Source: Streptomyces sp. NBC_01689 (GTDB taxonomy: Bacteria; Actinomycetota; Actinomycetes; Streptomycetales; Streptomycetaceae). From it: DNA of 64,000 bases. A program made the translations under genes and the position numbers. Below, in pieces: positions 4,032 through 38,265 of the stretch. How positions within the stretch are numbered: position 1 is the stretch's first letter; each line of letters begins with the position of its first letter. The stretch spans positions 496,001 through 560,000 of the forward strand of contig NZ_CP109592.1 of NCBI RefSeq assembly GCF_036250675.1, given 5' to 3'. The notes under the pieces were generated by a model. That model searched no databases. It saw nothing but the letters and a program-made list of their open reading frames with translations, and had not been told where the DNA came from.

Positions 4032-5381
4032 TCAGTCGGCGGCCGGGGCGGTCAGCCGGGCCAGGGCGGCCGTGGCGAGCGCGGTCGTTCCGGTCTCCAG
4101 GGTGAGGCGGGCGCTCGGCAGGTAGCGGGGCGAATGGTTGCCGGGCAGGCTGCGGAGTTTCTCGGCGGCCCCGGTTCCGGGGGCCGCCGCCCACTGTGCG
4201 GGGCCGATCGCACCGAGCATCCAGTAGGCGCCGCGAATGCCGGGGTGTCCGTGCAGATGGGCACCCGCCCCGGTCAGCAGGGGGAAGTCCTCGGTGGCCG
4301 AGGTGGCGGGCCAGCCGGTGACACGGGAGGTACCGAAGGCGGTCACGTGTGCGGCGCGGACGGAGGCTGTGACGTCCGCGTCGGCGAGCGTGACGCCGGA
4401 GCGGGACGACCGCGCGACGGTGACCCGCGGTGGCCTGGCCGCGGAAGCCGCCTCGGCTCGGGCGATCCGCTCCACGGCGACGGCCGCGCGGTCGAGGGCC
4501 GCCTCCGAGAAGGCCCGGACGGTGATGTGCAGCACCGCCCGGGAGGCGATCACGTTCCCGGAACGCCCCGCGTCGACCGTCCGCAGCGAGGAAGCCGAGA
4601 CGACCAGCCGCTCCGCGGGGTCGGTCTCCCGGGCGACGATCGTGGACAGGCGCGTCACCGTCCCCGCCGCGGCGAGGAGCGGGTCGGCGGTGAGATACGG
4701 AGTGGCGGCATGGCCGCCGTCGCCCTCGAACGTCACCTCCAGCGTCAGGCTGCCGGCCAGGACCGGGCCGTCGGCATGGGCGACCATGCCCGCCGGGAAG
4801 GACGCCGTGTGCTGCGCGAGCACCACGTCGGGCGGCGTTATCCGGTCGTACAGGCCGTCCTCCAGCATCGCGCGGGCGCCGCTGAGGGTCTCCTCCGCGG
4901 GCTGCCCGACGACGAGCAGGGTGCCGCGCCAGCTGACGCGCCGGGCCGCGAGCCATCGAGCGGCGGCCGCCGCACAGGCCAGGTGGGCGTCGTGGCCGCA
5001 GGCGTGCATCACAGGGACCGGGTGGCCGTCCGGTCCGGGCGCGGTCACGGTGCTCGCGTAGGGCACGCCGGTCCGCTCTGCCACGGGCAGCGCGTCGAGT
5101 TCGGCGCGCAGCAGGACGGCCGGACCCGCGCCGTTGGACAGGGACGCCGCCACGCCGTGGCCTCCGATGCCCCGCAGTACGTCAAAGCCGTCCGCCGCCA
5201 GCCAGTCCGCGAACCGGGCCGCCGTTCGGCTTTCGGCGCCGGAGAGTTCGGGATGACGGTGCAGGTCGAGGTAGAGCTCGGTGGTGGCGGGCAGCAGGCT
5301 GTCCAGGCCCGGAAGCGCGGGCCCGGCCGGGGATCGGTCGGGGCCCTGCGGGGTGCGGGGTCCGGTGTGGTCGGTGGTCAC
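4032..5381 (-). CDS. M20-family amidohydrolase
   Basis: A 449-residue zinc-dependent amidohydrolase of the hippurate/N-acyl-amino-acid hydrolase (M20D-like) type. Visible landmarks in order: LHRHPELSGAES (~40), AELDALPV, the metal-binding HACGHDAHLA, and PAEETLSGARAMLEDGLYD with the catalytic Glu. The inserted dimerisation domain contains GGHAATP, and NHSPRY lies near the end. Members hydrolyse N-acyl or peptide amide bonds in the cytoplasm. It starts with GTG behind GAGGAG. It is transcribed divergently from the RiPP precursor, sharing ~357 bp, so it may be a cluster-edge gene (processing or self-protection) or an unrelated neighbour. Nothing in the sequence decides between these. Confidence 0.8.
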   Translation of the reverse strand: MTTDHTGPRTPQGPDRSPAGPALPGLDSLLPATTELYLDLHRHPELSGAESRTAARFADWLAADGFDVLRGIGGHGVAASLSNGAGPAVLLRAELDALPVAERTGVPYASTVTAPGPDGHPVPVMHACGHDAHLACAAAAARWLAARRVSWRGTLLVVGQPAEETLSGARAMLEDGLYDRITPPDVVLAQHTASFPAGMVAHADGPVLAGSLTLEVTFEGDGGHAATPYLTADPLLAAAGTVTRLSTIVARETDPAERLVVSASSLRTVDAGRSGNVIASRAVLHITVRAFSEAALDRAAVAVERIARAEAASAARPPRVTVARSSRSGVTLADADVTASVRAAHVTAFGTSRVTGWPATSATEDFPLLTGAGAHLHGHPGIRGAYWMLGAIGPAQWAAAPGTGAAEKLRSLPGNHSPRYLPSARLTLETGTTALATAALARLTAPAAD

Positions 5382-5738
5382 GGGCGGGGCTCCTCAAGTG
5401 GTGGCCGCCCGCGCGTCGGTGGCGGGGCGGCGAAGTGGTCTGCGGCGGGCGGAGGGCGCCCGGGGCGGCGGACGTCTGCCGGGGTCGCCGCCGGTCCGGG
5501 GGCTCGGCGGCCAACTGGGTGTCGGCGGCCGGGTGGTCGGTCCGGATGCCGGTGGAACGGTCGGGAGGCGGGATCACGGAGGTGGTGTCAGCGGGGTGAC
5601 AGCGGGGAGCCAGGGCGCTGACGTCGGTACCGCGTAGAAAGGTGGAAGCCCGAGGTCCTGGCCTCCGGCAGGTTCAGCGCGTCGCCGGCCGGGGCTGTCC
5701 CGGTCGGTACCCGGTCCCCGCACTCCCAAGGAGACACC
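5382..5738. other. Intergenic region between amidohydrolase and RiPP precursor
   Basis: 357 bp of divergent control region. The left half (about 5400-5580) is extremely GC-rich and I see no gene in it. The right half carries the 11-bp-period direct repeats and -10-like element listed separately. The precursor's AAGGAGA ribosome-binding site lies at about 5728-5734. With the proposed -10 at 5635, the precursor mRNA would have an unusually long leader of roughly 90 nt. Confidence 0.6.
5590..5640 (+). promoter_or_regulatory. Candidate SARP-box promoter of the precursor gene
   Basis: AGCGGGG occurs at 5590-5596 and again at 5601-5607, exactly 11 bp apart. A weaker third copy, AGGGCGC, follows at 5612-5618. 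A -10-like TAGAAA lies at 5635-5640. SARP activators are known to bind heptamer direct repeats with 11-bp spacing just upstream of the -10, replacing the -35. A SARP gene lies in this cluster (21605-22681), so direct control of the precursor is a reasonable inference. The distance from the second repeat to the -10 (27 bp) is longer than usual unless the weaker third repeat is used. Confidence 0.4.
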
Positions 5739-5903
5739 ATGGCTGACAACACCCTCGCCTCCCTCGCCCAGGAGATCCTGGACCTCGAGTCGGAGACCTT
5801 CGAGATCACGGACTACTCGGACGCCAGCGAGGTCATGCTCGGCTCCTCCACCAGCTGCTCCTCGACGAGCACCTGCTCCAGCACCACCTCCTGCACCGCC
5901 TGA
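5739..5903 (+). CDS. RiPP precursor peptide, Ser/Thr/Cys-only core (TOMM / thiopeptide-type leader)
   Basis: A 54-residue peptide, ATG preceded by AAGGAGA. The leader (residues ~1-35) is acidic, MADNTLASLAQEILDLE then ETFEITDYSDASEVMLG. The ETFEI-DY segment resembles leaders of thiopeptide precursors. The tail (36-54) has 9 Ser, 6 Thr, 3 Cys and a final Ala, and reads as near-repeats SSTSC / SSTSTC / SSTTSC / TA, with Cys at 40, 46 and 52. Substrate of the YcaO, dehydrogenase and LanB-type enzymes encoded opposite: Cys would give thiazoles, and Ser/Thr oxazoles or dehydroamino acids. The likely cleavage is near Gly35, which is inferred. A separate transcription unit with its own promoter and a strong terminator, as expected for a precursor needed in excess. 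I do not recognise the core as any known compound. Confidence 0.88.
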   Translation: MADNTLASLAQEILDLESETFEITDYSDASEVMLGSSTSCSSTSTCSSTTSCTA

Positions 5904-5957
5904 CGTCCGACGTCGGGTTCGACGGTCCCCGCGCGCGGGTGCGCGCCGGGGACCGTC
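5904..5957 (+). terminator. Hairpin terminator after the precursor
   Basis: Inverted repeat at 5921-5957 with outer arms GACGGTCCCCG and CGGGGACCGTC (11 bp) around a further GC-rich inner part. It begins 18 nt after the precursor stop and lies between it and the end of the convergent YcaO gene, so it could stop transcription from both sides. There is no U-tract, as is common for actinobacterial terminators. Confidence 0.7.
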
Positions 5958-6100
5958 CTCGTTCCACGCGAGTGCCGGGGCCCGGCCTCCACCTCGCCCG
6001 TCGGCGCTCGCCCGCGCCTCTGTGCCCGCCCGCTCGTGGTGTGATCGTCCGCACGTGGATGTCGTCCCCAACGCCTCTTCCTCGATGGGGACTTCGGACG

Positions 6101-8101
6101 TCACGGGAACGGGTGCGGCACGCGCCGCAGGTCCTCCTCACCCAGCGGCTCGGGGACCAGGCCCGCGCGGTACGGCGCGGTCCGCAGGCGCGGCATGTGC
6201 AGGGCGCGCTGCCGCGGCCAGCCGAAGTCGATCGGCAGCAGTCCTGGGGCGAGCGTGGCCACCGTGCGCAGCCCCATCCGGCGCTGTTCCGGGGTGGTCT
6301 GGTCGACGGCGATGACATCGCATCCGGCGACCGCGAGCAGGTCGCGCAGGAGCAGCAGGTCGTCGCGGAGATCCGCGGTGCGCGGGCGGCGTTCCTCCCA
6401 GTCGGCGAAGAGTCGGCCGGGTGAGCCGGTGCGGGGCGGGGTGAGGTAGTTCTCGGCGTGCCGGCGCATCGCGGGCAGTCCGAACAGCGCGGCGTGGTCC
6501 GGCAGCCGTGCGACGAGGTCGAAGTCCTCGGCCATGGCGGCGAGTTCGTCGGGCCGTTCGGCCACCTGGCCGGGCAGGTGCGGGATGTAGGTGAGGATCT
6601 CGGAGACGGCGGACTCGATGGCGGTCTCCGGGTCGAAGGACGCGCCGGCCGCGAACGCCAGGGTGCCGGGTCCGTCGTCGCGGCGGACCGCGAGGCCGGT
6701 GACGACGGGGACCGGCAGGTCCACGCGGTTGTCGAAGACGTGGACGTCGTAGCCCTGGAGCGCGGCCCGCGCCACCATGGCCCGTACCTTCGGTCCGCGT
6801 ACCGACTCCAGGTCGATCTCGGGCAGGGGAAGGCCGCCGTACCAGCCCAGCAGGAAGGCGTCCCGTTCGACGAGTTCGAGGAGGCCGAAAAACACGGCTT
6901 CCTCCCATGTACCGCCCGTGGCACAGCCGTTGGAGCACTCGAAGACGAAGTTGTCCTCACGCGTGCCCGCGCTGTAGTAGACGAGCCGGGCCGGGACGAG
7001 CACCGGGCGTTCGTCGCGCAGCGACCACCCGGTGACCCAGGGCAGGGGCCGGGCGGGATCGAAGGGCTCGACCATCGGGTCCCGGGCGTAGGTGCGGGGT
7101 TCGTAGAGGCCGCACAGGCGGGGGTCGAGGGCTCGGTCGCCCAGTTCGTCGAGGGAGGCGGTGACGACCGGGCGACGGTGGCGGCGGTGGGTGCCCGCGT
7201 ACCGCTCCAGACCCTCAAGGAACGCCAGGTCGCGACTGCCCGCGTAGGAGTTGGCCTGGCCGCTCCAGGTGACGTCGGTGAGTCCGGCGTAACCGCGCAT
7301 GAAGACACTGCCCGCGACCGGCGCGGTCGTGGGCGAGGTGACGTCGATCCAGGTGCCGCCGCCCAGCACCCCGCAGACCGGGTTGGCAAGTCCCTTGACC
7401 GGCAGCGGGTAGTCGGCGGGGCGGCGCAGCCGGTAGGCGTCCGGGCGCGGTTTCGGGAGCGAGGCCGGTGCCGTGGCGGTGGCCTCCTCGGCGGCCTCGC
7501 GGGCGGCCCGCTCGGTGAACGGCCGGCAGTGCGGGCACATCGGCTCGGGCACCAGCGGGAAGGTGCGCACCCGGAGGGTCTCCAGGTCGAGTTCGGTGAC
7601 GCGCGGCAGTGCGGCGTCGGCGCCCTCGACGCTGTGCCGGGCGGCGCCCGAGGCGACGAGGCGGTGCAGGGACCACACGGCGTCCACGGTGTGGTCCGGC
7701 AGGACGGGCCAGTGACCGGCCGCGGTGGTCTCCGTACCCGTCTCCAGCGCCTCCCGTTCGGTCCGGGTGCGCAGCCGCTGGCGGCGCATGGCCAGGCAGG
7801 TGCCGCAGGCGGGGCCTGCCTCGGAGGCACCGCCCCAGGGTCCGAACAGGACGGCCTGCGCGGTGAGATGGATGCCGGCCGTGTCCGAGAGCACGGCCGG
7901 CGGGCCGGGGTGGACCGCGGCCGTTCCCGGGGATCCGGGCCGGACGGCCGGACGGCCGAGGACATCGGCGTCGCCGATGCGGGAGACGGCCGGGGCGGGC
8001 AGTCCGGCCGCCGCGGAGCGGGTCGCCAGGCGTGCCTGGAGTTCCGCGCGTGCGGCTTCCAGGGGCGAGACGGTCGGCGCGATGCGCGTGGCGGTGGTCA
8101 T
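6101..8101 (-). CDS. YcaO cyclodehydratase 1 (TOMM/SagD type)
   Basis: A 666-residue ATP-dependent azoline-forming enzyme that activates backbone amides of the precursor so Cys/Ser/Thr side chains cyclise. The N-terminal part keeps two CxxC pairs (C99/C102 and C189/C192), a zinc site of the E1-like region usually next to these enzymes. The YcaO domain starts near 235, with LEGLERYAG (~295-303), SNGCATGG (390-397) and ELVERDAF (409-416) supplying ATP/Mg-binding glutamates, then DFGWPRQRALHMPRL. The end is PHPFP, the Pro-rich C-terminus typical of TOMM YcaO proteins. The ATG at 8101 overlaps the permease stop (ATGA); I rejected the much longer upstream frame. Last gene of the operon and the nearest enzyme to the precursor. 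A second full YcaO lies at 17235. Confidence 0.9.
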   Translation of the reverse strand: MTTATRIAPTVSPLEAARAELQARLATRSAAAGLPAPAVSRIGDADVLGRPAVRPGSPGTAAVHPGPPAVLSDTAGIHLTAQAVLFGPWGGASEAGPACGTCLAMRRQRLRTRTEREALETGTETTAAGHWPVLPDHTVDAVWSLHRLVASGAARHSVEGADAALPRVTELDLETLRVRTFPLVPEPMCPHCRPFTERAAREAAEEATATAPASLPKPRPDAYRLRRPADYPLPVKGLANPVCGVLGGGTWIDVTSPTTAPVAGSVFMRGYAGLTDVTWSGQANSYAGSRDLAFLEGLERYAGTHRRHRRPVVTASLDELGDRALDPRLCGLYEPRTYARDPMVEPFDPARPLPWVTGWSLRDERPVLVPARLVYYSAGTREDNFVFECSNGCATGGTWEEAVFFGLLELVERDAFLLGWYGGLPLPEIDLESVRGPKVRAMVARAALQGYDVHVFDNRVDLPVPVVTGLAVRRDDGPGTLAFAAGASFDPETAIESAVSEILTYIPHLPGQVAERPDELAAMAEDFDLVARLPDHAALFGLPAMRRHAENYLTPPRTGSPGRLFADWEERRPRTADLRDDLLLLRDLLAVAGCDVIAVDQTTPEQRRMGLRTVATLAPGLLPIDFGWPRQRALHMPRLRTAPYRAGLVPEPLGEEDLRRVPHPFP

Positions 8102-8846
8102 GGCCGGTTGCTCCAGCGGAAGATCCGGGTGGCGATCAGGCCGAAGACCAGCGCGAACACGGCGAGCCCCGCGCAGTCCACGGCGATGTCGCCGAGGTCG
8201 CCACGTCCGCCGTAGGCGTCGGTGATCCCGTCGTTGAGGTAGTGGAGCGGCAGCACCTTGGCGACGGCACGCAGCCAGCCCGGCATGAGGTCGTCGGGGA
8301 AGAACGAGCCGGAGAGGAAGGCCATGGGCACCATGACGATGTTGGCGATGGCCGCGACCGCTTCCGGGGTGTTCGCGACGCTGCCGACGATCAGTCCCAT
8401 GGCGAGGAAGGCGGTGACCCCCAGGAGCAGCAGTGGGGCCGCCGCCCACCAGGGTCCGGCGAGGCGCAGGCCGAAGAACGGCAGCAGGGCGATGGCGGTG
8501 AAGAGCACCGTCTGCACGAGGGCGACGCACAGCGCGACGGTCCAGCGGGAGGCGAGCAGGGTGCGCAGGGGGGTCGGGGTACGCCAGATGAGGCGGAGCA
8601 GGTCGTCGCGGCGCCACTGCATGAGGGCGAAGGCGACGGAGAACACCGCCGCGTTGCCCACGCCCCAGGAGAGTACGCCGGGGGCGATGTAGTTGATGGA
8701 CGACAGGCCGCCGTCGACGTGCTGGCCCTGGAAGATCAGGCCGAAGAGGACCAGGAAGGCGAGCGGGAAGGCGAAGGTGAAGAACAGGGTTGTCTTGTCG
8801 CGGACGCTCGCGACGTAGGTGGCCCTGGTCAGTGCGGCGTAGGCGC

Positions 8847-8850
<4 letters not shown>
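8098..8850 (-). CDS. ABC-2 type permease
   Basis: A 250-residue integral membrane protein of the DrrB/NodJ type with about six hydrophobic segments, e.g. LFFTFAFPLAFLVLFGLIF, LRLAGPWWAAAPLLLLG, AIANIVMVPMAFLSGSFF. It contains the loop FPDDLMPGWLRAVAKVLPLHYLNDG, seen in drug/peptide exporters. It overlaps the ATPase gene upstream and the YcaO gene downstream by 4 nt each, so it is translationally coupled. With the ATPase domain encoded just before it, it probably exports the finished peptide and gives self-resistance; this is inferred from context. Confidence 0.88.
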
Positions 8851-11314
<2,464 letters not shown>

Positions 11315-11318
<4 letters not shown>

Positions 11319-12607
11319 CCCTCGCCTCCCGGCGCCCGGCCGCGGGCCGCCGCGCCCTCGGTGGCGGTGGCTTCGGCGCTCGCCTCGCTCGGAGCCACGG
11401 CGGTCTCCGGCTGCCCCGCGCCTCCGTCGCGCAGGGCGCGGGCCAGGACGTAGGAGAGGAAGGCCTCGTCGCGGATGGTCATGCTCAGCCGGTTGTTGGT
11501 CATGTGCAGATAGGGCGAGAGCAGCATGGGCAGCGCCTGGGCAGGGTCGGTGGGGCGGATGTCCCGGCTGCCGTCCCACGCGCGGAAGGTCAGGTCGCCG
11601 CGCAGCGTCAACTCCGCGGCCCGGTCGCGCAGTTCGGTGCTGTGTTCGGCCCAGCCGCGCAGGAACGCCGGAAGCCGGTCCGTCTCGCCCCGGGCGACCG
11701 CGTCCCTGATGCGCCGGAAACGCTCGGGAAGGCTCGCGCCCATCTCGGTGTAGGCGCGGTCGTAGCCCTGGGCCGCGGTGTAGTTCGTCCCGCTGAACGC
11801 CCGGTCCCAGAAGGCGTGATAGCGGTCGAGGAAGGTGAGCAGTGCCTCGTCGTCCTTCAGGAACGTGCCGGACATGACCATCATCAGCTGGGCGGAGAGT
11901 CCGAGCAGCACCGTGCGCAGGTGGAGGTTCATGCTCCGCGCGGCTTCGACGACCAGGTCGCTGGAGTGCTGGAAGTGCCACTCGGCGAGCGCGACACCGC
12001 CGGGGCCGCCGTATTTGCCGTACTCGGGCTCGTACGGCCGGTCCTCGAAGCTGTTGTTGGGGCGCAGCCGCATCCGCCCGTCGGCGCCGAGGAACTCGGC
12101 GCGCTGCTCCTCGGTGTACTCCAGGGTGAACAGGGTCTCGTACAGGTCGGCGAGGAAACCCGCCTTCACCTCGTAGAGCGCGGGGCGTTCCCGCAGGAAC
12201 GTGGCGAGCGCGGTGTGGGCACGTTCCCGGACGGCGGGGGCGTCGGCGGCCCGTCGAGGGCGCAGGCGCAGCCGCAGATGCGGGCCCTCCAGCCAGTAGT
12301 TGATGAAGAAGTACCCGGCGAGCAGGCCTTCTCGGGTGAGGTCGTCCACCAGCGGCTTGACGCACTGCAGGAGCAGCGGGCGAGGGCTGGCGGCGTAGAA
12401 GACGTGCACGGCGAGCCAGTCGCCCGGGGCGTCGGCGTCGTGCGGGGCGTCGGAGTCGTGCGGGGCGTCGGAGTCGTGCGGGCCGGTGACCGTGGCGGAG
12501 GCGGGGACGCCGGAAGAAGGAGCGGGTGCGGAAGAGAGGGTGGGTCCGGACGAAGGGGTGGGTCCGGAAGCAGGGGTGGGCGCGGAGGAAGCGGTGGGTG
12601 CGGTCAT
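11315..12607 (-). CDS. Thiopeptide-type (SpaB_C) dehydration/elimination protein
   Basis: A 430-residue protein of the SpaB C-terminal / thiopeptide-type biosynthesis family. In split LanB systems this part eliminates glutamate from Ser/Thr glutamyl esters to give dehydroalanine/dehydrobutyrine; related proteins build the thiopeptide pyridine ring. Family features: VFYAASPRPLLLQCVKPLVDDL (~66-90), FFINYWLEGPHLRLRLR, and the hallmark SPYLHMTNNRLSMTIRDE near 375-392. The first ~60 residues are a low-complexity Pro/Ala/Ser/Asp extension with PHDSDA repeats, unusual for the family. Its ATG overlaps the dehydratase stop (ATGA), matching a GodF/GodG-like pair. As the only SpaB_C protein here, I assign it elimination rather than cycloaddition. 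That assignment is inferred. Confidence 0.82.
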
Positions 12608-15381
12608 GGGGTGGGGTCCTCTTCGGGCAGGCCGGCCGGGGCGGGGAGCATTTCTACGGCGAGTTCGGCGACGTGCCGGCCGCGCGGTGAGGTCACATGG
12701 AGTTCGCTCTCGCCGGGCAGCATCTCCTCGAAGACGGTGCGGGCCCGTTTACCGGCCAGGAGGCCTTCGAGCGCGGTGAGCGACAGCGGGCTCTCGAAGT
12801 CGACGTACTGGGGTTTGGACCCGCCGAACCAGCCGGCACCCTCGCCGGTCGTCTCCTCGTGCACGGTGGCGAAGGCCTGGGCGGGCAGCCCGTGCCGGAC
12901 GCGCCAGCGGTGCCAGCCGAGGTACCACTGGCCGGCGGTGGTGTCGGGGGCGCGCAGCGGGAGACTGCCGTCGGCGGCCGTCCAGGACCGCCGATGGAGC
13001 ACGAGGGAGTGGTGGCGGACGCGCGGCCGGCGGGTGACGCCCTCGGTCTCCGGACCGGACGGTACCCCGCGCCACACGTCCGGCACGGACCGGGCGGTCG
13101 GTGAGAACAGGAGGAGGGTGCGGGGGATCTCGGGCAGGACCATGGGGACGAGGTAGCCGAGGTAGAGCGGAACCACCTCGCGGTCCAGGCGGCGTGAGCG
13201 CAGGACGAGCCGGTCGGTGTCCGTGTCGTGCACGGCGTGGAGGTCCTCGAGGTGGAGCCGCGCCTCTTCCGGGGCGGTGCTGTGCTCACCGGGGCAGACG
13301 ATCTCGTAGTCGGTCAGCCGGCCGTGGAGGTTGAGGTTGGTGGTGGTGGCGCCCGCGGTGATCTCGGCGAAGACCGCCCCGGGCGGGAGCAGTCCGCGCA
13401 GTTCCGCGCGGAGCGCGTCCGTGAGGCCGGTGGTCTCGTCCGTGCCGTCGAAGCAGTGGGTGAAACGGGTGAAGGGGAAGCACAGGCCGCCGAAGGAGTC
13501 GTTGAGCACGACGAGTGGATCGCCGTCGCGGCGGGCGAGTTGGAGGAAGTGGCTGTGCGGCTGGAAGGCGGGCCCGGCGGCGCCCAGTGCTTCGGCCACC
13601 TCGTTCACGGTGTCCTCGTCGAGGACGAACTCCTCAGCTTCGGGGTTCAGTTCGGCCCAGTTCGCGCGCATCCGGGCGGTCAGGGTCGCGCGCGCCCGGT
13701 CGACCGCGGCGATCTCCGGCATGCCGAGCCAGTTCTCCTCCGGTGCGTGGCTGCCGTCGGGGAGGCGGTCCTCCTTGGTCGCGGTGAACTGGAGGTACTG
13801 CCGGAAGATGTCCTCGTGGAAGTCGTGGACGAGCCGCAGCAGGTCCTCGCACCGTCCACCGCGTCCGAAGCGGGCGAGGAAGAAGCCTTTGAGCGTGAGC
13901 CGCTGGGGCAGGGCGACGTCGAAGGCGGGCAGCACCCGGCCGACCGAGCGGAGCGGGCGGGCGGCGAGCGCCGTCCACTCGTCGAGGGCGGCGGAGGTGG
14001 TCCCGGCCGACACGTCCTCGTAGACAAGGGTCTGCGGGAGCACGGGCCGTTCGGCGCCGAGGTCGGACTGGAGGGCGAGGAGGTCGGCACGGAGTGCTCT
14101 GAGCAGGGCGCGGCGGCCGGGGACGTCCGCCGCCGGGTATCCGGCGAGGAGTTGGGCGGGGCCGTCCAGGCGGGTCGCGAGGTCGTCCGCCCAGGGTCGT
14201 TCGAGTGCGCGGAGCGACCGCTGGACGGCGGCTATGGGATCGGGCTCGTGCACCGCGAGGGAGAGCGTCGGCAGTTGGAGCATGCCGAGGTCGAGCAGGG
14301 CGGTGAGGTAGTGTCCGGCCGCCTCGTCGTCGGCACCGGTGGTGGTGGCCAGCCAGTTGGCCAGGTCGCCGTGGCGGCAGGTGCCGTCGTGGTCCCGCAG
14401 CAGGGCGAGCATCGCGTCCAGCGTGCCTCGGCGGCGGAGGAAGAGCAGCCGGTCCTGGGCGGCGTCGAAGCTGACCGGCGCGCTGTCGTCGCCCGCGGTG
14501 ACGGCCCGCTGGACGTAGCGGATCCGGTCGTCGTCCAGTTTCCACCCGGAGGCGAGGGCCACCGGCAGGTCGGCGCGGCGCCGTGGGTCGGCGGCGATCA
14601 GTTCGGCGAGCCGGGTGAGCACGACGACGTTGAGCCTGCAGTGTCCGGTCCAGTCGTCGTCGACACGGGTCGCCGCGGGGGTGTCGTCGTCGGCCGGTGC
14701 CCGGAAGCCGCCGAGGGCGACTCCGGTGAGGGTGCTGAAGGGGCTGGTCTTGCACGCGGTGCGGTAGACGTAGGAGAGCAGCGAGCGTTCCATCTTGCGG
14801 GTCCGTTTGCCGGGGACCGCGGCCGGGTCGGCAGGGTCGGCGGCGAACGCGTCGAGCCGCTCCTCGAGGGTGGGTGAGGCGAGCAGCAGGCCTCGGCGGA
14901 GCCGGTCGTCCAGGGCCAGTTCGCGCAGGGCGGTGCGGGTGCGGGCGAGCCCGGACGCGAGGACGGCCTCACCCTCGGCGCGCAGTCCGTCCCAGCGGAC
15001 GCGGGCGTCGAGCCAGGCCGTGAGGTCGGCCCCGGTGCTGCCGCCGAGGCCGGCGGCCAGGGCGCGGGCCTCTTCGAGGTCGTTCGGCAGGCGGTTGTTG
15101 AAGACGGTGCGGCGCAGCGCGAGCAGCCGGCGGCGCAGCGCGGCGTCCTCGGTGGCGCCGACCACGTCGGACAACGGATCGCTGAGCGCGGCGCCGAGGG
15201 CGCCGAGACGGTCCTCCTCGGCGGCGGCCCGGACGGCCCAGTCCGTCGCCTCGGGGGCGCGCAGGGCCACGACCGTGTCGACGGGCAGCCCCGCGACGCG
15301 CAGCATGAAACGTCCGTGCAGGCGGGCGGAGCCGTCGGCGGTGGGGGCGTCCTGGGCCGGGCTGGTGGCGGTGGGGCTCAC
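12604..15381 (-). CDS. LanB-type lantibiotic dehydratase (glutamylation subunit)
   Basis: A 925-residue protein with the full Lant_dehydr_N architecture. In split systems (goadsporin, thiopeptides) this subunit transfers glutamate from glutamyl-tRNA to precursor Ser/Thr hydroxyls. Recognisable segments include VFNNRLPNDLEEARALAAGL (~114), SLLSYVYRTACKTSPFSTLTG (~200; the KTSPFSTLTG block is diagnostic), NDSFGGLCFPFTRF (~625), and LHLEDLHAVHDTDTDRL followed by LRSRRLDREVVPLYLGYL (~705-735). The C-terminal elimination domain of full-length NisB is absent; the next gene supplies it. It starts at GTG 15381 behind a GGGGGAGG-like site, 178 nt after the dehydrogenase gene. Length and order fit a working enzyme. 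Confidence 0.9.
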   Translation of the reverse strand: MSPTATSPAQDAPTADGSARLHGRFMLRVAGLPVDTVVALRAPEATDWAVRAAAEEDRLGALGAALSDPLSDVVGATEDAALRRRLLALRRTVFNNRLPNDLEEARALAAGLGGSTGADLTAWLDARVRWDGLRAEGEAVLASGLARTRTALRELALDDRLRRGLLLASPTLEERLDAFAADPADPAAVPGKRTRKMERSLLSYVYRTACKTSPFSTLTGVALGGFRAPADDDTPAATRVDDDWTGHCRLNVVVLTRLAELIAADPRRRADLPVALASGWKLDDDRIRYVQRAVTAGDDSAPVSFDAAQDRLLFLRRRGTLDAMLALLRDHDGTCRHGDLANWLATTTGADDEAAGHYLTALLDLGMLQLPTLSLAVHEPDPIAAVQRSLRALERPWADDLATRLDGPAQLLAGYPAADVPGRRALLRALRADLLALQSDLGAERPVLPQTLVYEDVSAGTTSAALDEWTALAARPLRSVGRVLPAFDVALPQRLTLKGFFLARFGRGGRCEDLLRLVHDFHEDIFRQYLQFTATKEDRLPDGSHAPEENWLGMPEIAAVDRARATLTARMRANWAELNPEAEEFVLDEDTVNEVAEALGAAGPAFQPHSHFLQLARRDGDPLVVLNDSFGGLCFPFTRFTHCFDGTDETTGLTDALRAELRGLLPPGAVFAEITAGATTTNLNLHGRLTDYEIVCPGEHSTAPEEARLHLEDLHAVHDTDTDRLVLRSRRLDREVVPLYLGYLVPMVLPEIPRTLLLFSPTARSVPDVWRGVPSGPETEGVTRRPRVRHHSLVLHRRSWTAADGSLPLRAPDTTAGQWYLGWHRWRVRHGLPAQAFATVHEETTGEGAGWFGGSKPQYVDFESPLSLTALEGLLAGKRARTVFEEMLPGESELHVTSPRGRHVAELAVEMLPAPAGLPEEDPTP

Positions 15382-15559
15382 GCCCTCCCCCTTTCCTGTG
15401 GGGTGTGCTGCCGTCCGCTGGAGGGGCGGCCCGTCGGCCGACGGGTCACGGACGGGAACGGAACGGGATGTCGGGTGGCGCCGGGGCTTCGGGGGGAAAC
15501 GGGGAGATGTGCGGGAACCGGAACGGGGACGGGGATGCGCGGGGGCGCCGGGGTGCGGG

Positions 15560-17149
15560 TCACGGCGCGACGATGTCGTAGCGGTAGTCGGCGGAGCGGG
15601 AGCGCTCGTGACCGATCATCATGATCAGGAGCGGGATCTCGCCCCGTTCGGCCAGCCCGAGGCGCTCCTCGAAGGAGACGCTGTCGAAGCCGAGGGCGAC
15701 ACCGCAGCCGGTTCCGGCTGCCGAGGCGGTGGTGTAGACGGCCTGGGCGACGGCCCCGACGACGGCGTTGACCAGCCGGTAGCCACGGTCGCCGACGGCG
15801 TCCAGTACGGCGTGGGTACGGGCCACGGGCACCAGGACGGCCGCGGCCTGCTCCACGTTGTAGTTGGCGAGGAAGTAGTTCTGCTGGAGAAAGGCGCCGT
15901 GGTCCCCGGTGCGCAGCACGACCAGCTCGCCGGTGTCGCGGTCGTACTCGTAGAGGCCCGCGGGCACGTCGCGGACATGGTTGACGAAGACGCACAGCCG
16001 GGCCAGCGGTGCGCCGCCCGGGGATTCGGTGTCGCTGTCCAGCGTGCCCGCCGCGACGGCGGCCCGCAGGACGACGGCGAGCCGGGCCGCGTCCAGGGGC
16101 TCGGCGGAGGTGAACCGGCCGAAGCTGCTGCGGCGTTCGCGCAGTGCCCGGCGCACCGGGACCGCCAACGGCGTGGGCTCCGGAAGCGGGACGCGGTCGC
16201 CGGGTCCGGCGGGGGCGGCGAGGGCGCCGTCCAGGACGCCGGGTGCGGGCCGTTCGTCGGCGCCTGCCAGGGTCGCGGTGTGGATGTGGCGCAGGGTCGG
16301 GAAGGACAGCACCCTGCGCGACTTCTCGTCGGGCACCCGCCGCACGGAGGCAGCGGGCGTCGGCGGTGCCGGAACCTCCGGAGCGGCGCCGGCCCAGCGC
16401 AGCGGTACGACGGCGAAGACACCGTCCTCCTCCGGATCCAGTCCGAGCAGCCGGCCGAGCCGGGGCTCGTCGAACCAGAGGGCGGTACCGAGGTGGAGCC
16501 CGTGCGCGCGGGCCCACATCCGCCAGGTCTGCACGAGGGCGCCGATGTCCATCGTCACGGCGTGGTAGCAGAAGCTGTTGTACTTGAAGGAGTTCTGCCA
16601 GAACGTCACGCCGAGGACGAGGAACTGGTCGGTCCCGGCGGCTTCCTCCAGGTCGCCGAGGGCGGCGCGGACCTCGGCGCTCACGTCGCCCGACAGGAGC
16701 CGGGTGAGGCGGTGGTGCGGGGTGTCGTAGTAGTGGACGCCCGGTGTGAGGGGTCCGCTCGCGCCGCTGATCCAGTGCACCCCGATGGGGTACAGACCGC
16801 CCCCGGAGGCCGTGCCCCGTGACCAGTTGGCGTGCGAGTAGAACGGCAGGGAACCCAGGTCGGTGTTGGCCTGGACGGCGAGGCGGCGCCCGGTCAGACC
16901 GTAGGAGTCCCGGAGCATCGCGCCGAGCAGCGGCAGCGTGAACGCTCCGGTGCCGGCCCGGCCGAACAGGCCCTGGCCGAGTGTGGCGTCCTCGGCGCAG
17001 CCGCCGTCCGGCAGCGGCACGGACGGCGCGCCGGGGAAGAACTTCCCCTTGCGGGGTCGGTCGGACCAGTCCGGGACGAAGTCGGCCGGTTCCATGGGGA
17101 CCCGGCCCCGCCGCATCACCGCGGTCGCGTACTCATGGGCGTATCCCAC
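15560..17149 (-). CDS. SagB/McbC-type azoline dehydrogenase
   Basis: A 529-residue FMN-dependent oxidoreductase expected to oxidise thiazolines/oxazolines to thiazoles/oxazoles. It consists of two nitroreductase-like halves. The first carries GTASGGGLYPIGVHW (~105-122), equivalent to the SagB family's SGGALYP signature. The second starts near ALRERRSSFGRF (~333) and includes NYNVEQAAAVLVPVA and a Gly-rich end region (GTGCGVALGFDSVSFEE). The GTG at 17149 was chosen because GAGGGAG lies 5 nt before it; the upstream start at 17197 has no such site. It sits between YcaO 2 and the dehydratase in the same operon. Nothing suggests an added elimination domain of the LazF kind. Confidence 0.88.
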   Translation of the reverse strand: MGYAHEYATAVMRRGRVPMEPADFVPDWSDRPRKGKFFPGAPSVPLPDGGCAEDATLGQGLFGRAGTGAFTLPLLGAMLRDSYGLTGRRLAVQANTDLGSLPFYSHANWSRGTASGGGLYPIGVHWISGASGPLTPGVHYYDTPHHRLTRLLSGDVSAEVRAALGDLEEAAGTDQFLVLGVTFWQNSFKYNSFCYHAVTMDIGALVQTWRMWARAHGLHLGTALWFDEPRLGRLLGLDPEEDGVFAVVPLRWAGAAPEVPAPPTPAASVRRVPDEKSRRVLSFPTLRHIHTATLAGADERPAPGVLDGALAAPAGPGDRVPLPEPTPLAVPVRRALRERRSSFGRFTSAEPLDAARLAVVLRAAVAAGTLDSDTESPGGAPLARLCVFVNHVRDVPAGLYEYDRDTGELVVLRTGDHGAFLQQNYFLANYNVEQAAAVLVPVARTHAVLDAVGDRGYRLVNAVVGAVAQAVYTTASAAGTGCGVALGFDSVSFEERLGLAERGEIPLLIMMIGHERSRSADYRYDIVAP

Positions 17150-17234
17150 GGTCACTCCCTCTTCTGCTCGTGGTCGTCCGAGACGGCCGCCGGACACTGC
17201 GGTGTCCGGCGCCGGTCGTTGGGTGGTGCGGGTG

Positions 17235-19199
17235 TCAGGGGAAGGGGTGCGGGGCCGGGTTGAGGCCGTCCGGTGACAGGTCGTCGGTTCGGAGTCCCGC
17301 CTCGCGCAACGCGGTGCGGGCCCTGGGCATCAGCGGCCCCCGCTGCCGGCTCCAGCCGAAGTCGATGGGGATCAGACCGGGCACCAGCACCTTGACCGTG
17401 TGGAATCCCAGTGACCGCTGTTCGACGACCGTCTGGTCGACGACCACCACGTCGAAGCCGCGCGCTGTCACGGCGGCGACGCAGGCCTCCACGTCCTCGC
17501 GCAGGTCGGCGGCAGCCCGCGGGGTGCCGGGCGCGGAGGTCAGTGAGTTCAGCGGTACCCGGTCCGACTCCTCCCGGCCGCGCAGCAGGAAGTCGGTGTA
17601 CCGGCCCATCTCGGGCAGCCCGTACAGGAGCGGGTGATCGTGCAGGACGCGCACCTCTCCGAAGTCGTCCGCCATGCGCCGCAGTCGGCGCTCCTCGCGG
17701 GCGGTGCGCCTGCGGAGGTTGACGGAGTCGGTGGCGATCTCGCAGAGGCCGCCGGCGAGCGCGTCCTCGGGGTCGAGGGAGGCGCCCGCGCCGAAGCAGA
17801 GCAGTCCGGGTCCGCCGTCGACGCGCTCGGCGACCGCGGTCACGACCGGTACGGGGAAGGTGACGCGGGTGTCGAAGAACCGTGCCCGGTAGCCGTACAT
17901 GGCCAGCCGGTCGACCATGGCGCGGGTCGCCGGGCGGGTGCTGCTCGACGGGTCGATCTCGGGCAGTCGGGCCCTTCCGAACCAGGCCAGCAGGAACGCG
18001 TCGCGTTCGACGGTCTCCATCAGCCCGTGGTAGACGGCCTCGGTCGGACTGCCCCCGGACGCACAGCCGTTGGAGCTCTCCTGCACGAAACGCCGCCGCA
18101 CGCCACCGGGTGCGTGGTAGTAGGCGACGATCTCCGGCACCAGCACGGGCCGGTCGTCGCGCAGCGACCAGCCCCACACCCAGCGCACGGGGCGGTCCGG
18201 GGCGAAGCGCGGCGCGTCGGGTTCGGCGGCGTGGAAGGCGTCGGAGTACAGACCGGTGACCCGCGGGTCGACCGCCGTGTCGCCCAGGTCGTCGAAGGCC
18301 GCGGTCACCGTGGTCCGCTTGGCGCGGGCCCGCATCCCGGCGTACCGCTCGAGCCCCTCCAGCAGTCCCACCCGCACGCTCGTGCCGTACGTCCCCGTGT
18401 GGCCGCCCCAGAAGCACTCCCGCAGGTAGTCGCCCGAGCGGGTGGTGAACGCGCCCACGGTGGACGAGGTCGAGGCGGACGTCAGGTCGGGGACGACGGA
18501 CGGTCCGAGCATCCCCGTGACCGGGTTGGCGAACGCCTCCAACGGCAGGTCGTACGCGTGCAGCGGGCGCAGCCGGAAACCGCCCGGTGCGTGCTTGGGG
18601 GCGGGGTCCAGAGCGATCCTGGCGGCCTCGGCGGTGTCGTCGGGGCACGTTCCGCAGGACGGGCACTCGCCGTCCGACACCAGCGGGAACCGGGCGACGC
18701 GGAGCGTCTCCAGGTCCAGCAGCCAGACCCAGGGGTGGCGGCCTGGGCGCGGTTGCCGGGCCGCCGCCGCGACGAGGGCGGACAGGGTGTCCGCCACGAA
18801 GTCGGCGCGCCACGGCGGGGTTCCGGTCGCCCGGGTCTCCTCGCCGCGCTCGACGGCGTCCCGCAGGTGCCCGGCCCGTACCGACTGCCAGCGGCGGGCC
18901 AGGCACCTCGGACAGCCCGTGGCACCGTCCGCGGCCGGCGGGCCGACCACGGCATGGTGTCCGTACAACCCGACCGGTACGACCCCGGGCCCGAACTCCG
19001 TTTCCTGTTGGTCCAGTTCGTGCAGTTCGTCGCGGACACCGAGCGGGGTCACCACCGCCCGCGGTGTGCCGGGGTGGCGTGCCGCGCGCTCGGCGAGCGC
19101 CGTGGTCAGTGCGGAGCACACCTCGTCCCACGGCCCCGGGGGTCGGGGTTCCCGTGGTGCGGCCTCGTCGCGCGGCGCTGCCATGGTCTCAGTCGGCAC
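17235..19199 (-). CDS. YcaO cyclodehydratase 2 (TOMM/SagD type)
   Basis: A 654-residue second complete YcaO cyclodehydratase. It has the same layout as the 6101-8101 enzyme: an N-terminal region with CPRC (~98) and CPSCGTC (~180) zinc-type cysteines, then LEGLERYAG, SSNGCASGG (~373) and ETVERDAFLLAW (~393), FGWSRQRGPLMPRA, and a terminal PHPFP. All residues expected for ATP activation are present, so neither copy looks dead. The two differ across the substrate-facing middle. GTG 19199 has GGAGAG upstream and overlaps the F-protein gene by 11 nt; an ATG at 19184 is possible. Two YcaO enzymes sharing one F protein could divide Cys from Ser/Thr, or different core positions; this is inference. 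Confidence 0.9.
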   Translation of the reverse strand: MPTETMAAPRDEAAPREPRPPGPWDEVCSALTTALAERAARHPGTPRAVVTPLGVRDELHELDQQETEFGPGVVPVGLYGHHAVVGPPAADGATGCPRCLARRWQSVRAGHLRDAVERGEETRATGTPPWRADFVADTLSALVAAAARQPRPGRHPWVWLLDLETLRVARFPLVSDGECPSCGTCPDDTAEAARIALDPAPKHAPGGFRLRPLHAYDLPLEAFANPVTGMLGPSVVPDLTSASTSSTVGAFTTRSGDYLRECFWGGHTGTYGTSVRVGLLEGLERYAGMRARAKRTTVTAAFDDLGDTAVDPRVTGLYSDAFHAAEPDAPRFAPDRPVRWVWGWSLRDDRPVLVPEIVAYYHAPGGVRRRFVQESSNGCASGGSPTEAVYHGLMETVERDAFLLAWFGRARLPEIDPSSSTRPATRAMVDRLAMYGYRARFFDTRVTFPVPVVTAVAERVDGGPGLLCFGAGASLDPEDALAGGLCEIATDSVNLRRRTAREERRLRRMADDFGEVRVLHDHPLLYGLPEMGRYTDFLLRGREESDRVPLNSLTSAPGTPRAAADLREDVEACVAAVTARGFDVVVVDQTVVEQRSLGFHTVKVLVPGLIPIDFGWSRQRGPLMPRARTALREAGLRTDDLSPDGLNPAPHPFP

Positions 19200-21567
19200 G
19201 GTGCTCTCCGCGGGTCAGCAGGACGCGCACCGCGTGCAGGTGGCCGGCCGCGAGGTCCGGGGCGGGCACCGGTACCGCGAAGGCGTCCCGGCCGACGGCG
19301 GCGAGACCGTCGAGCACGGCGGCCCAGGTGGTGCCGGTGTCCGGAAGCGGTGCGGCGGGGCCGGCGACGAGGGTGGAGGCGTCGAGGTCGGCCCACAGCG
19401 GGTCACCGGTGTCGATCCCGTCGGCGGCGGCGCGCAGTTGCTCGGCGCCGAGCAGGTCGCGCAGAGCCTCGAGTACGGCGTCGCGGTGCCGCAGGCCGCT
19501 GCCGGTCGCCCAGCGCACCGCCCCGGTCTCCGGGTCGGTGAGGCGCGCCAGGGCGACGGGCAGCAGACCGCCGCCGGCGGCGGTGAGGTCCAGGATCTCC
19601 ACGGTGGTGCCGAGGTTCTCGGCCGAGCGCAGCAGGAAGAGCGCCTCTGGACCGGCGGCGGCCACGGAGGAGTGGTCGACGGCGGGCAGGGCGGCATGGC
19701 GGCGGACGGCGCCGCGCAGACCGTCGAGGGCGAGCGCGGTGCCCAGGGCACGGGTGAGCGCGGCCCGGGGGCTGCCGGCGGCGCCGGTGCCCGCCGAGGT
19801 CCGCTCGAAGTGACCCCGGTCGTTCCAGCCGCCGAGGGTGCGGACGGCGCCCGCGGGCACCAGGACGGTCCGCCCGTCGGTCAGGGAGACGGCTTCGCTC
19901 CAGTGGGCGACCTGGTCGGAGGGGACGTCGAGTCCGCTGCGGACGGTCAGTTCGGCGGGTGCGACGCGCGTCCACCTGCCGATGGCGGCCCGCAGTGTCC
20001 AGGCGTCGAGGACGCGGGGCGGGACGACGTGTTCGGCGTAGACCTCGGCGGCGCGGAACAGCGCGGTGAGGCGGGCACCGGCCACGGTGTGGATGTCGAC
20101 GGCGGAGATCCGTCGCTTCCGGCCGGGCGCGACGCCCAGGAGGACGGTACTGACCTTGAGCGGGGTCTGCTCCCAGTCCTCGTCGGCGAACGCGGTGAAG
20201 ACACCGGCCCGTTCGTGGACGAGGACGTCGCGCCGCTCGAGGGCCGCGAGCAGCGTCCTGGCGGCATCCTCGTCGGCGGCTCCGTCGGCGGGCGGCGCGG
20301 TGAGCTCGTCGTCCGGGTGGGGGGCGCGGAGCAAGTCGCCCGGGAGCGGGCGGGGTTCGACCGTTGCGGCGTTCTCCGTGGCGGGGGTGTCCCACGCGGC
20401 GGTGACACCGTCCTCCGACGCGCAGTACGGGCAGTGAGGGTGCGGCAGCAGCGGCTCGGTCAGGACATCGAGGGAGTCGAGGTCCTGGACGACGATCTGG
20501 TTGCGGGTCTCCGCGGGCAACGCCCCGGTCACGAGGCGGAACACCTCGAAGGCGAGAAGGTTGCCGAGCATGCCCGCGAGAGGGCCGGAGAGGCCGGGCG
20601 GGAGAGCGCCGAGCGGCGCCGCCGGGCCCACCGAGGCCCACAGGTCCGCGCTGTCGGTGGCGTCGGCGCCCGCACCGAGCCGCAGGGCGGCGCAGCACCA
20701 GCAGCCAGGAGTATCCGCGGTCATCACCGGGCCGACGACGGCGCGGTTGCCGAACGTCCAGGTGCCCAGCAGGCGGCGGCCGGCGGGGACGCCCTCGGCG
20801 AGCAGCCGGAGCAGTTGACGGCGCCCGTTCGCGCCGGTGACCAGGACGGTGTCCCAGCCGTCGAGGTCCTGCCAGCCGTACGTACTGTCCTCCGACCCGG
20901 CCCCCACGGCGGGCGGGGCTCCCGCGGGCGAGACCCCGGCGGGCGGGGGCAGGCGTTCCAGGCGGGGGACGCAGCCCGCTTCGGTGAGGGCCGCGGCCTC
21001 CGCGTCGAGATCGTCGGTGCCGTCGACACCGTGGAGCTCGCGGGTCAGCACGTCGTGCGGCGGGTTCGGTGCGGTGACGGCCACGGCGGCGCAGCCGTTG
21101 CGGAGCAGGCCGAGCGCCGCCCACCGGGCCACCGCGTCGTCGCCCAGGACCGCGACCGCGGTGGAGCGGAAGCGCAGGAAGCGGCCGGGCGCGTCGTCCG
21201 CGTAGTGGTCGAGGTAGTCGAGCTGATGGGAGAAACGTTTCATCACCTGCGATGACAAAGCGTCCGCCGGTGGGGTGAGCCCGGCGTCCCGGGCGAAACC
21301 ACGCGCGTAGAGTGCGCGCACGAGTTGGACCACCATGTCGCGCTGCTTGTCCCCCAGGCCGGCACAGAGTTCCTCTACCCGGCGTTCGCCGTCGAGGTGG
21401 GGGACGATCAGCGTGGCGAAGCGGTACGCGGACTGCGTGACGACGTTGAACCCGCCGTGGGCGTTGTGGAAAAGCACTCCGGACGGGGTCCGGGTGAACA
21501 GGACGTCCCTGCGGATGCGGGGCCGGGACTGAGCGATGTCCTCGTGGGACGCGGGGGCCTGAGCCAT
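19189..21567 (-). CDS. F protein: RRE + Ocin-ThiF-like leader-binding protein with degenerate YcaO-like C-terminus
   Basis: A 792-residue protein that should bind the precursor leader and present it to the YcaO enzymes. Residues ~14-100 form a PqqD-like RNA... more precisely RiPP-recognition element (RRIRRDVLF-type start adjusted: RPRIRRDVLFTRTPSGVLF ... ALYARGF). Residues ~110-400 are ThiF/E1-like with a Rossmann start AVAVLGDDAVARWAALGLL (~135), CWCC (~287) and CPYC (~375) as the zinc tetrathiolate. From ~590 the sequence aligns by eye with YcaO (ENLGTTVEILDLTAAGGG, RHRDAVLEALRDLL) but lacks the SNGCA and ERDAF motifs, so it is non-catalytic. The ATG at 21567 is 12 nt after GGAGG, 37 nt downstream of the SARP gene. 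Family assignment is by motif and order. Confidence 0.85.
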   Translation of the reverse strand: MAQAPASHEDIAQSRPRIRRDVLFTRTPSGVLFHNAHGGFNVVTQSAYRFATLIVPHLDGERRVEELCAGLGDKQRDMVVQLVRALYARGFARDAGLTPPADALSSQVMKRFSHQLDYLDHYADDAPGRFLRFRSTAVAVLGDDAVARWAALGLLRNGCAAVAVTAPNPPHDVLTRELHGVDGTDDLDAEAAALTEAGCVPRLERLPPPAGVSPAGAPPAVGAGSEDSTYGWQDLDGWDTVLVTGANGRRQLLRLLAEGVPAGRRLLGTWTFGNRAVVGPVMTADTPGCWCCAALRLGAGADATDSADLWASVGPAAPLGALPPGLSGPLAGMLGNLLAFEVFRLVTGALPAETRNQIVVQDLDSLDVLTEPLLPHPHCPYCASEDGVTAAWDTPATENAATVEPRPLPGDLLRAPHPDDELTAPPADGAADEDAARTLLAALERRDVLVHERAGVFTAFADEDWEQTPLKVSTVLLGVAPGRKRRISAVDIHTVAGARLTALFRAAEVYAEHVVPPRVLDAWTLRAAIGRWTRVAPAELTVRSGLDVPSDQVAHWSEAVSLTDGRTVLVPAGAVRTLGGWNDRGHFERTSAGTGAAGSPRAALTRALGTALALDGLRGAVRRHAALPAVDHSSVAAAGPEALFLLRSAENLGTTVEILDLTAAGGGLLPVALARLTDPETGAVRWATGSGLRHRDAVLEALRDLLGAEQLRAAADGIDTGDPLWADLDASTLVAGPAAPLPDTGTTWAAVLDGLAAVGRDAFAVPVPAPDLAAGHLHAVRVLLTRGEHRAD

Positions 21568-21604
21568 GGGGTGGGTGAACCTCCGAAGTGCAGGGGAGCG
21601 ACGG

Positions 21605-23175: not shown

Positions 23176-23701
23176 CAGACAAGTGACCCGGCCGTCCCGA
23201 TGCCTCCTCGTGCTCCGGGGCCACGGCAGGACGCAGGTCACGCCACTCCCCCATGTCCCGGGCGGGCCGACGAGGACCCCGCTGTCCGCCGTCGCCGACC
23301 GCAACTCCGCCGCGAGTGAACCCGGTTCGGGCCGCACAGAGTCCCCGCGTCCGTGCACCCTGCGGGTGAGCATCGCGGCGACACCCGCCCTGAAAGGGAC
23401 CGTGGCCCGACACACCGCGGGTTCTCGCGTGCCACACCGGCCCGCGCGCTCGGTACCGGCCCGCGTATTTGGTGCCTGACGCGTCGTCGCCGGGCCGTAA
23501 GAACACACCCAGGAAGTCGTCGTCGGGCGACCCGCGCTCACACGTGTCACCTCTCTCCCCGCCCGCCCGAGGGCCGTGGACCCGGTCGGCCCCCTCGCGA
23601 ACCCGGTGTCCCGAGGCGCGATGATCTCTTTGCCGTTCGGGCCGCGCATTCAGGTGATTTCGGTGCGACCAGGCAATTTGGCCTCCCTAGTATCTGTTTC
23701 C
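23176..23701. other. Long non-coding stretch before the flavin monooxygenase
   Basis: 526 bp. Frames here are either shadows or lack ribosome-binding sites. The only element I can point to is TAGTAT at 23688-23693, a -10-like hexamer 8 nt before the GTG of the next gene. No -35 of clear consensus is seen 16-18 bp upstream. Confidence 0.4.
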
Positions 23702-24910: not shown

Positions 24911-25011
24911 CCCCTCCCCCGAACCCCTCTCCCCGAACCCCGCACCGCGTACATCCGTGTGCGGACAACCGCATGCGTACATCCGAACCCCGGAATGAGG
25001 ATCTCCCCGCG

Positions 25012-29947: not shown

Positions 29948-30000
29948 AGGACTTCGCTGCGGGGGACAGGACTTCCCTGCGGGGGAGAGGACTTCACTGC
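29948..30000. repeat. 20-bp tandem repeat, 2.6 copies
   Basis: Unit AGGACTTCNCTGCGGGGGAN at 29948, 29968 and (partial) 29988. The variable base after CTTC is g, c, a. The third copy overlaps the stop codon of the minus-strand F5/8C protein gene. Possibly slipped-strand duplication of the gene's 3' end. Confidence 0.85.
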
Positions 30001-37951: not shown

Positions 37952-38265
37952 CTTTTCTCCCACGCACCGCTCTCGATCCGGTCTGCTCGGCCGTCGGCCC
38001 GCTGAGATCCTTCCACGCCACCCTGGCGCGAAGGAGTGGTGGCGCACGCGTGTCGGGCCGCGCACCCGTACTCCCACAGGTCCGCAGACCGCACCCACGA
38101 GCGCCGTGTACCGGCCGCGGGTGCTCGCACGGACAGGGGGTGAGCCCAGCCCCTTCCGCAGCACTCCTACTCGCCCTTCGGCCGCGCCGGGATCCCGCAC
38201 GATTGACAGCGGAGGCTAATAGCCTTAGCTTTTAGCTAATGACGTTAACTTCTCGGGAGGAAGTC
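37952..38265. other. Divergent region between phytochrome and hydrolase-TetR operon
   Basis: 314 bp. The right part holds the promoter/operator described separately (38203-38239). The left ~250 bp shows no gene or clear regulatory element. Confidence 0.45.
38203..38239 (+). promoter_or_regulatory. Promoter with overlapping palindromic operator for the hydrolase-TetR operon
   Basis: TTGACA at 38203-38208 and TAGCTT at 38226-38231 are spaced 17 bp. Across the -10, half-sites form two nested inverted repeats: GCTAA-N5-TTAGC (38215-38229) and TTAGCT-TTT-AGCTAA (38225-38239). The AT-rich palindromes overlap the promoter of an operon whose second gene is a TetR repressor, so autoregulation is the natural reading. 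Confidence 0.6.

Follow-up and report, generated by a model that had tools for sequence, protein, structure and literature searches.

The stretch of DNA analyzed here, 64,000 nucleotides of contig NZ_CP109592.1 from Streptomyces sp. NBC_01689 (positions 496,001 to 560,000; hereafter, the window), carries a conserved gene cluster that spans window positions 4032-22681. The cluster includes a short open reading frame (ORF; 5739-5903, forward strand) encoding a 54-amino acid precursor of a ribosomally synthesized and post-translationally modified peptide (RiPP), with the C-terminal end SSTSCSSTSTCSSTTSCTA. Among the last 19 residues, 18 are Ser, Thr or Cys, and Cys occupies positions 40, 46 and 52, in exact agreement with a preliminary description of this DNA that was made from the sequence alone. 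The assignment of the ORF as a RiPP precursor, put forward in the same description, is borne out by the genes alongside, namely, two YcaO proteins of the thiazole/oxazole type, a dehydrogenase and a split LanB. The features of the locus are, in window coordinates:

4032-5381, reverse: M20-family amidohydrolase/peptidase (PF01546, TIGR01891)
5728-5733, forward: ribosome-binding site AAGGAG of the precursor (read in the sequence)
5739-5843, forward: leader peptide of the precursor, M1-G35, with a predicted cleavage point (translation; NF033400 and TIGR03892 scores)
5844-5900, forward: core of the precursor, SSTSCSSTSTCSSTTSCTA (translation, family cores), followed by the stop codon at 5901-5903
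5921-5957, no strand: GC-rich hairpin between the convergent precursor and YcaO2 genes, possible two-way transcription terminator (fold)
6101-8101, reverse: YcaO2, fused C-D cyclodehydratase with a PHPFP end (TIGR03604, 341.5 bits; TIGR03882, 83.9 bits)
8098-8850, reverse: ABC-2 permease (PF01061, 90.5 bits)
8847-11318, reverse: M50 (site-2-protease type) metalloprotease with HELAH and LDGY motifs, in frame with an ABC ATPase
11315-12607, reverse: LanB C-terminal half (LanB-C), predicted glutamate-elimination enzyme (scores, tree, motif residues)
12604-15381, reverse: LanB N-terminal half (LanB-N), predicted tRNA-Glu-dependent glutamylation enzyme (PF04738; 6ec7_A match)
15560-17197, reverse: SagB-type flavin azoline dehydrogenase with two nitroreductase-like regions (TIGR03605, PF00881)
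17235-19199, reverse: YcaO1, second fused C-D cyclodehydratase with a PHPFP end (TIGR03604, 308.8 bits; TIGR03882, 114.1 bits)
19189-21567, reverse: F protein with an N-terminal leader-binding RRE-like (RiPP recognition element-like) region, a ThiF-like region and a divergent YcaO region
21605-22681, reverse: SARP-family regulator (PF03704, 132.8 bits)

The gene content of the cluster is established at the sequence level by these matches and the following ones. Both YcaO1 and YcaO2 resemble the solved LynD, TruD and MusD, which we take to be azoline-forming enzymes. LanB-N matches chain 6ec7_A ('Lantibiotic dehydratase domain protein', presumably TbtB) with an E-value of 5.8e-32, and the matched stretches lie towards both ends of the protein. 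Residues 17-95 of the F protein match the PbtF chain 8t19 (E 7.9e-4); the whole protein scores 61 bits with TIGR03693, far under the cut-off of 562, 61.8 bits with TIGR03882, over the cut-off, and 49 bits with PF02624. The M50 protease and the ABC ATPase form one 823-codon frame in the window and in three relatives (G206, G176 and G036), and two frames in the other relatives; in the window, the ATPase could start separately, at an internal ATG at 9908 preceded by AGAGG. The fold of the segment containing the hairpin (5904-5975) has an energy of -44 kcal/mol (z -2.44), equalled by 4 of 200 shuffles. Pfam scans of the proteins from window positions 1-33019 yielded no match to a LanC-type family, to a LanM-type DUF4135 dehydratase or to any acetyltransferase family. 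The TfuA family was also missing among these scanned proteins, and thioamidation was rejected on this basis.

The precursor passes two curated models that are both titled 'thiazolylpeptide-type bacteriocin', NF033400 (45.9 bits; cut-off 30) and TIGR03892 (39.8 bits; cut-off 25), and is the sole NF033400 match in its own 9.96-Mb genome. From a set of 5.8 billion proteins, 73 of the 84 scored candidates are its relatives at E <= 0.01. In its own genus, 47 of 295 genomes, the host genome included, possess the precursor. A class-wide draw located it in 20 of 394 genomes; eight of these 20 lie outside the genus, and most of the eight carry arrays of two to four precursors. Named genomes, culture-collection strains among them, encode a relative in 165 places, 80 of which were kept as loci of up to 20 kb each, from Streptomyces, Kitasatospora, Actinacidiphila, Streptacidiphilus, Streptantibioticus and some others. 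Thus, the precursor is no orphan but a member of a large catalogued family. The preliminary description had failed to recognize the core among known ones and, in this respect, it holds: the core strings occur in no open-licence PMC paper searched (subscription journals lay outside the search, and a published product is possible). Likewise, among the listings and passages of open-licence PMC papers, we recognized none that describes the cluster of this precursor; the precursor label is mentioned once for a Streptomyces genome (PMC10118248) and 'coryneazolicin' once (PMC11278768).

The unusual composition of the tail could be fortuitous, and this was ruled out by a six-frame scan of 1,487,963 bases from 72 sources (the window and 71 of the 80 named loci, those longer than 15 kb). 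The scan detected 71 runs of 19 codons that specify no fewer than 18 Ser, Thr or Cys, a single one of which, the precursor, comes from the window; classed by motif and not by position, all 71 bear at least one of six short precursor-family motifs.

The gene set surrounding the precursor is conserved. In 20 genus genomes that were chosen from the 46 other carriers and compared with the window, the complete gene set, with the M20 peptidase and the SARP regulator at its two ends in the window, was found in 20 of 20, and the gene order is that of the window in 17. In the remaining three, the M20 gene lies between the precursor and YcaO2 (G036) or the precursor lies beside the SARP gene (G092 and G025). 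In 60 of the 80 named loci, the visible order is identical, and the remaining 20 comprise variants and truncated stretches; each of two loci from Streptacidiphilus departs from this order and encodes two precursors. Seven more distant clusters, from two other families (7 of the 8 out-of-genus genomes), all contain the F protein, a YcaO, the dehydrogenase, both LanB halves and the M50/ABC proteins; a second YcaO is found in three of the seven and SARP in three, and the M20 gene in none. A single YcaO was seen in the other four, the cores of which are Cys-rich. The M50 HExxH and LDG motifs are present in all 27 loci, and the PHPFP end in each YcaO of 19 of the 20 genus loci. The exception is G171 (L050-L051), where the frames of LanB-C and of the two YcaO genes are broken, next to an intact precursor, which may reflect cluster decay or an assembly error. 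The other actinomycete families (L163-L182 and L183-L196), to which the seven distant clusters belong, possess arrays of up to four precursors with Ser/Thr/Cys-rich cores beside homologous enzymes.

The name of the precursor family and its models suggest a true thiopeptide, in which case the single LanB-C or an unrecognized gene would perform the [4+2] cycloaddition that produces a pyridine macrocycle. The PbtF-like F protein fits this possibility, and so does the predicted fold of LanB-C, which is closest to TbtD/PbtD, that is, nearer the synthase TbtD. This fold comparison runs counter to the assignment of LanB-C as an elimination enzyme, and does not settle the question. The other lines of evidence point the opposite way. 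LanB-C is the only Lant_dehydr_C match in its own whole genome (a single match is also found in 6 of 20 relatives), and nowhere in that genome does NF045556 score above the cut-off. Compared with the TbtD/PbtD model, LanB-C scores 91.5 bits, within the range of the non-cyclase neighbors (52-106 bits, 10 of 10) of the 10 proteins that pass the cut-off with 371-502 bits. In a FastTree tree, LanB-C groups with elimination enzymes, apart from the pyridine synthases (support 0.991). Furthermore, LanB-C contains Glu195 and His368, as do 8 of 8 elimination-type neighbors and all 27 family rows, and the respective motifs align with stretches of MibB; in 8 of 8 pyridine synthases, these positions are Arg and Tyr. 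Finally, dehydration requires an elimination enzyme, and no candidate other than LanB-C was found in the genome. Most likely, then, judging by these sequence comparisons, LanB-C is a glutamate-elimination enzyme rather than a pyridine synthase. The thiopeptide [4+2] enzyme is probably absent from the genome because its only Lant_dehydr_C protein groups with the elimination enzymes. With no [4+2] pyridine synthase recognized, a thiopeptide macrocycle is not expected, and we rejected the thiopeptide reading, which we consider unlikely, on gene content, the contrary fold notwithstanding. A second stand-alone Lant_dehydr_C gene with an elimination-like motif was observed elsewhere (L036, 15908 onward; G272:C1:5040169-5040987), about 3 kb from the precursor on its opposite side, with a further YcaO match in the same stretch; possibly, this is a second RiPP cluster side by side with the first.

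We consider it probable that the cluster makes a linear peptide with azol(in)es and dehydroamino acids, in a manner similar to goadsporin and without a pyridine synthase. The precursor cluster probably represents a widespread, pyridine-less relative of the thiopeptides. We infer each chemical step and the modification map as follows. Once SARP turns the operon on, the RRE-like region of the F protein would bind the leader, and one or both YcaO proteins would cyclize core Cys and Thr, perhaps along with some Ser. The SagB-type dehydrogenase would oxidize the cyclized residues to azoles. The stand-alone LanB-N would then glutamylate Ser immediately preceding an azole, and elimination of the glutamate by LanB-C, likewise a stand-alone enzyme, would give dehydroalanine (Dha). 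The M50 protease and the ABC transporter are the candidates for leader removal and export, and the M20 enzyme might be involved in end trimming or host protection. Alternatively, the LanB pair could act elsewhere, or add an amino acid without elimination, so that the peptide would carry azoles only; amino acid addition is the sole activity of some small LanB-like proteins. LanB-N, however, is full length, resembles 6ec7 towards both ends, and is accompanied by a conserved elimination-type partner in all 20 genus clusters and all 7 distant ones, which makes an azole-only product quite unlikely.

The pattern of residues in the core predicts which sites become azoles and which become Dha. The usual core of the family is SSTSCSSTSTCSSTTSTTSC(S/T/C)A, or a version starting with Gly, with Cys spacings of 6 and 9. 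From 176 precursor records, we obtained 23 distinct 22-residue cores in one register; 25 other tail types, including that of the window, are outside the position counts. In the 96 distinct DNA sequences that are in register, 767 of the 768 codons at core positions 4, 6, 7, 9, 12, 13, 16 and 19 specify Ser, and both TCN and AGY codons are present at each of the eight. Because TCN and AGY cannot be interchanged by a single silent change, it is the Ser residue itself that is kept. In contrast, Cys is found in 15 of 161 cells at the Thr positions vs 0 of 184 at the eight Ser positions (p 7.5e-6), where the p-values are indicative only because the cores share ancestry. When core position 2 is added to the Ser set, Cys appears in 6 of 207 cells (p 0.012). 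Removal of three cores with a doubtful register leaves Cys in 12 of 140 Thr vs 0 of 160 Ser cells (p 8.2e-5; 5 of 180 and p 0.025 with position 2), and removal of the core from a metagenome-assembled genome (MAG) as well leaves 7 of 133 vs 0 of 152 (p 0.0044). A change from Ser to Cys takes one base, and a change from Thr to Cys takes two. In this MAG (L103, 8056-8163), Cys replaces 6 of the 8 Thr, giving the core ASCSCSSCSTCSSCCSCTSCCA; the contig breaks off after a single YcaO.

Cyclization is a fate open to both Cys and Thr, so the Thr/Cys positions are likely azole sites, and the fixed Ser likely become Dha or stay unmodified. In the 22-residue register, azoles are predicted at positions 3, 5, 8, 10 and/or 11, 14, 15, 17, 18 and 20, and Dha at the Ser that precede azoles, namely, 4, 7, 9, 13, 16, 19, and perhaps 2. 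For the shortened core of the window, the prediction is a maximum of about 8 azoles and 5-6 Dha, with a loss of 20 Da per azole and 18 Da per Dha. The same exchanges bear on the possibility of a lanthipeptide, with Ser/Thr dehydrated by LanB and thioether rings closed by Cys: the split LanB and the three core Cys would fit, but the interchange of Cys and Thr at the same positions suits cyclization of both, the conserved enzymes include two cyclodehydratases and a dehydrogenase instead, and no LanC-type domain is found among the scanned proteins, so that this reading is very unlikely.

The preliminary description had emphasized the six-residue period of the core as a sign of a chain of azoles and dehydroamino acids. 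The period turned out to be idiosyncratic: Cys spacings of 6 and 6 occur in 1 of 102 distinct precursor DNA sequences, that of the window, and hexad periodicity as a design principle is rejected on this count. The chain itself remains the most likely product, given the two YcaO proteins, the dehydrogenase and the split LanB alongside. In the near relative L072 (S. bauhiniae), AGCACCACC appears twice in tandem before TCCTGC, and in the window once. The window core lacks one Ser-Thr-Thr unit, one copy of this 9-bp tandem repeat, which converts the spacings of 6 and 9 into 6 and 6 and thereby creates the hexads. Their origin is explained most simply by slippage at the repeat with loss of a unit; the missing unit may also be an assembly error. 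The shortened core, confined to this genome, could be taken as a sign of a decaying cluster with relaxed constraint on the core, but the difference is in frame and involves a whole unit at a tandem repeat, the cluster genes of the window are open with their domains matched, and G171, with several broken genes, shows what decay looks like, making this account highly improbable.

Goadsporin, to which we liken the predicted pathway, has a core that is not limited to Ser, Thr and Cys. The god cluster of Streptomyces sp. TP-A0584 encodes a YcaO, a dehydrogenase and a split LanB (GodF/GodG) without a pyridine synthase (PMC5303826, PMC4603692), the combination also found in the window, and Dha in goadsporin forms before azoles and depends on the adjacent azoles (PMC5303826). 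By description, the window is set apart by two YcaO proteins together with an F protein, the M20 enzyme and SARP, by M50/ABC proteins in place of an ABC transporter with a peptidase domain, and by no acetyltransferase (GodH) among the scanned proteins. The nearest described gene set is that of the coryneazolisins, which (PMC4603692) combines two D proteins, LanB-like dehydratases and no [4+2] protein, all as in the window, with a core of nearly all Cys, Ser and Thr. Coryneazolisins are described from Corynebacterium only, one of their D proteins is discrete, their core consists of 10 Cys/Ser/Thr, Ile, and 5-7 Cys/Ser/Thr, and no product was known in Cox et al. 2015. Ile is found neither in the core of the window nor in any of the 23 in-register core types.

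The thiopeptide clusters for thiomuracin (Tbt) and GE2270 (Pbt) share with the window the precursor models and type, the cyclodehydratase with a PbtF-like F protein, and the split LanB pair of a TbtB-like glutamylation enzyme and its elimination partner; the [4+2] pyridine synthase is the component not recognized here. The precursor belongs to NF033400/TIGR03892 by score, and the family name implies a thiopeptide whereas the gene set does not. Dehydrazoles, including carnazolamide, are described in PMC10676384 as having many Dha directly before azoles and a Ser/Thr/Cys-rich core, as predicted for the window; they differ in LanM-type (DUF4135) dehydration and a nitrile-hydratase-type leader, as opposed to the split LanB and short leader of the window. 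Among the TfuA-YcaO clusters (PMC8120280) are ones with a precursor under the same label, 'thiazolylpeptide-type bacteriocin'. Some of the clusters combine a fused YcaO cyclodehydratase with a dehydrogenase and a split LanB, a set that the authors of that paper compare to goadsporin, but they encode TfuA, linked to thioamides, which is not found among the scanned proteins of the window.

Two genes beyond the SARP regulator were considered as tailoring genes and discarded, an FAD monooxygenase (23576-24910) and an O-methyltransferase (within 24727-26760), neither of which has a match above 60 bits in the 20-kb flanks of the 20 compared genomes. Farther along the window, there are OAA-family lectin domains with a weak F5/8 type C match (29994-31571, reverse) and a phytochrome-type histidine kinase (PAS_2, GAF, PHY, HisKA and HATPase domains; 35666-38200, reverse).

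More tentatively, and with considerable doubt, the clusters could make up a separate, widespread class of actinomycete RiPPs, pyridine-less, with an all-Ser/Thr/Cys core converted into a nearly continuous chain of azoles and Dha, with a maximum of about 9 azoles plus 6 Dha per 22 residues. If so, the second YcaO would be specialized for Thr, yielding methyloxazoles, because one-YcaO clusters have Cys-rich cores and two-YcaO clusters a higher T/(T+C) ratio. This ratio is 0.31-0.35 in the four distant one-YcaO clusters, which are closely alike and amount to about one event, and 0.58 in two two-YcaO clusters, the third, G438, being outside the count. Mean pairwise identity among the 96 sequences is 0.914 for the core vs 0.859 for the leader. 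The Nei-Gojobori ratio of nonsynonymous to synonymous differences (pN/pS), 0.735 in the core and 0.397 in the leader, taken alone, counts against a stronger constraint on the core; we set it aside because switches between TCN and AGY serine codons are counted as amino acid changes. A core at least as fixed as the leader suggests that the product has a single conserved target or serves as a signal, instead of being an antibiotic engaged in an arms race.

According to PMC10676384, how YcaO and LanB divide the Ser and Thr residues they share is not yet known. This division is directly testable here, where almost all residues of the core are open to both fates, and the natural Cys/Thr exchanges provide a residue-by-residue prediction of azole and Dha sites. 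A cluster labeled as a thiopeptide seems to lack the enzyme that defines thiopeptides, and chemists should look for a linear azole/Dha peptide, not a macrocycle.
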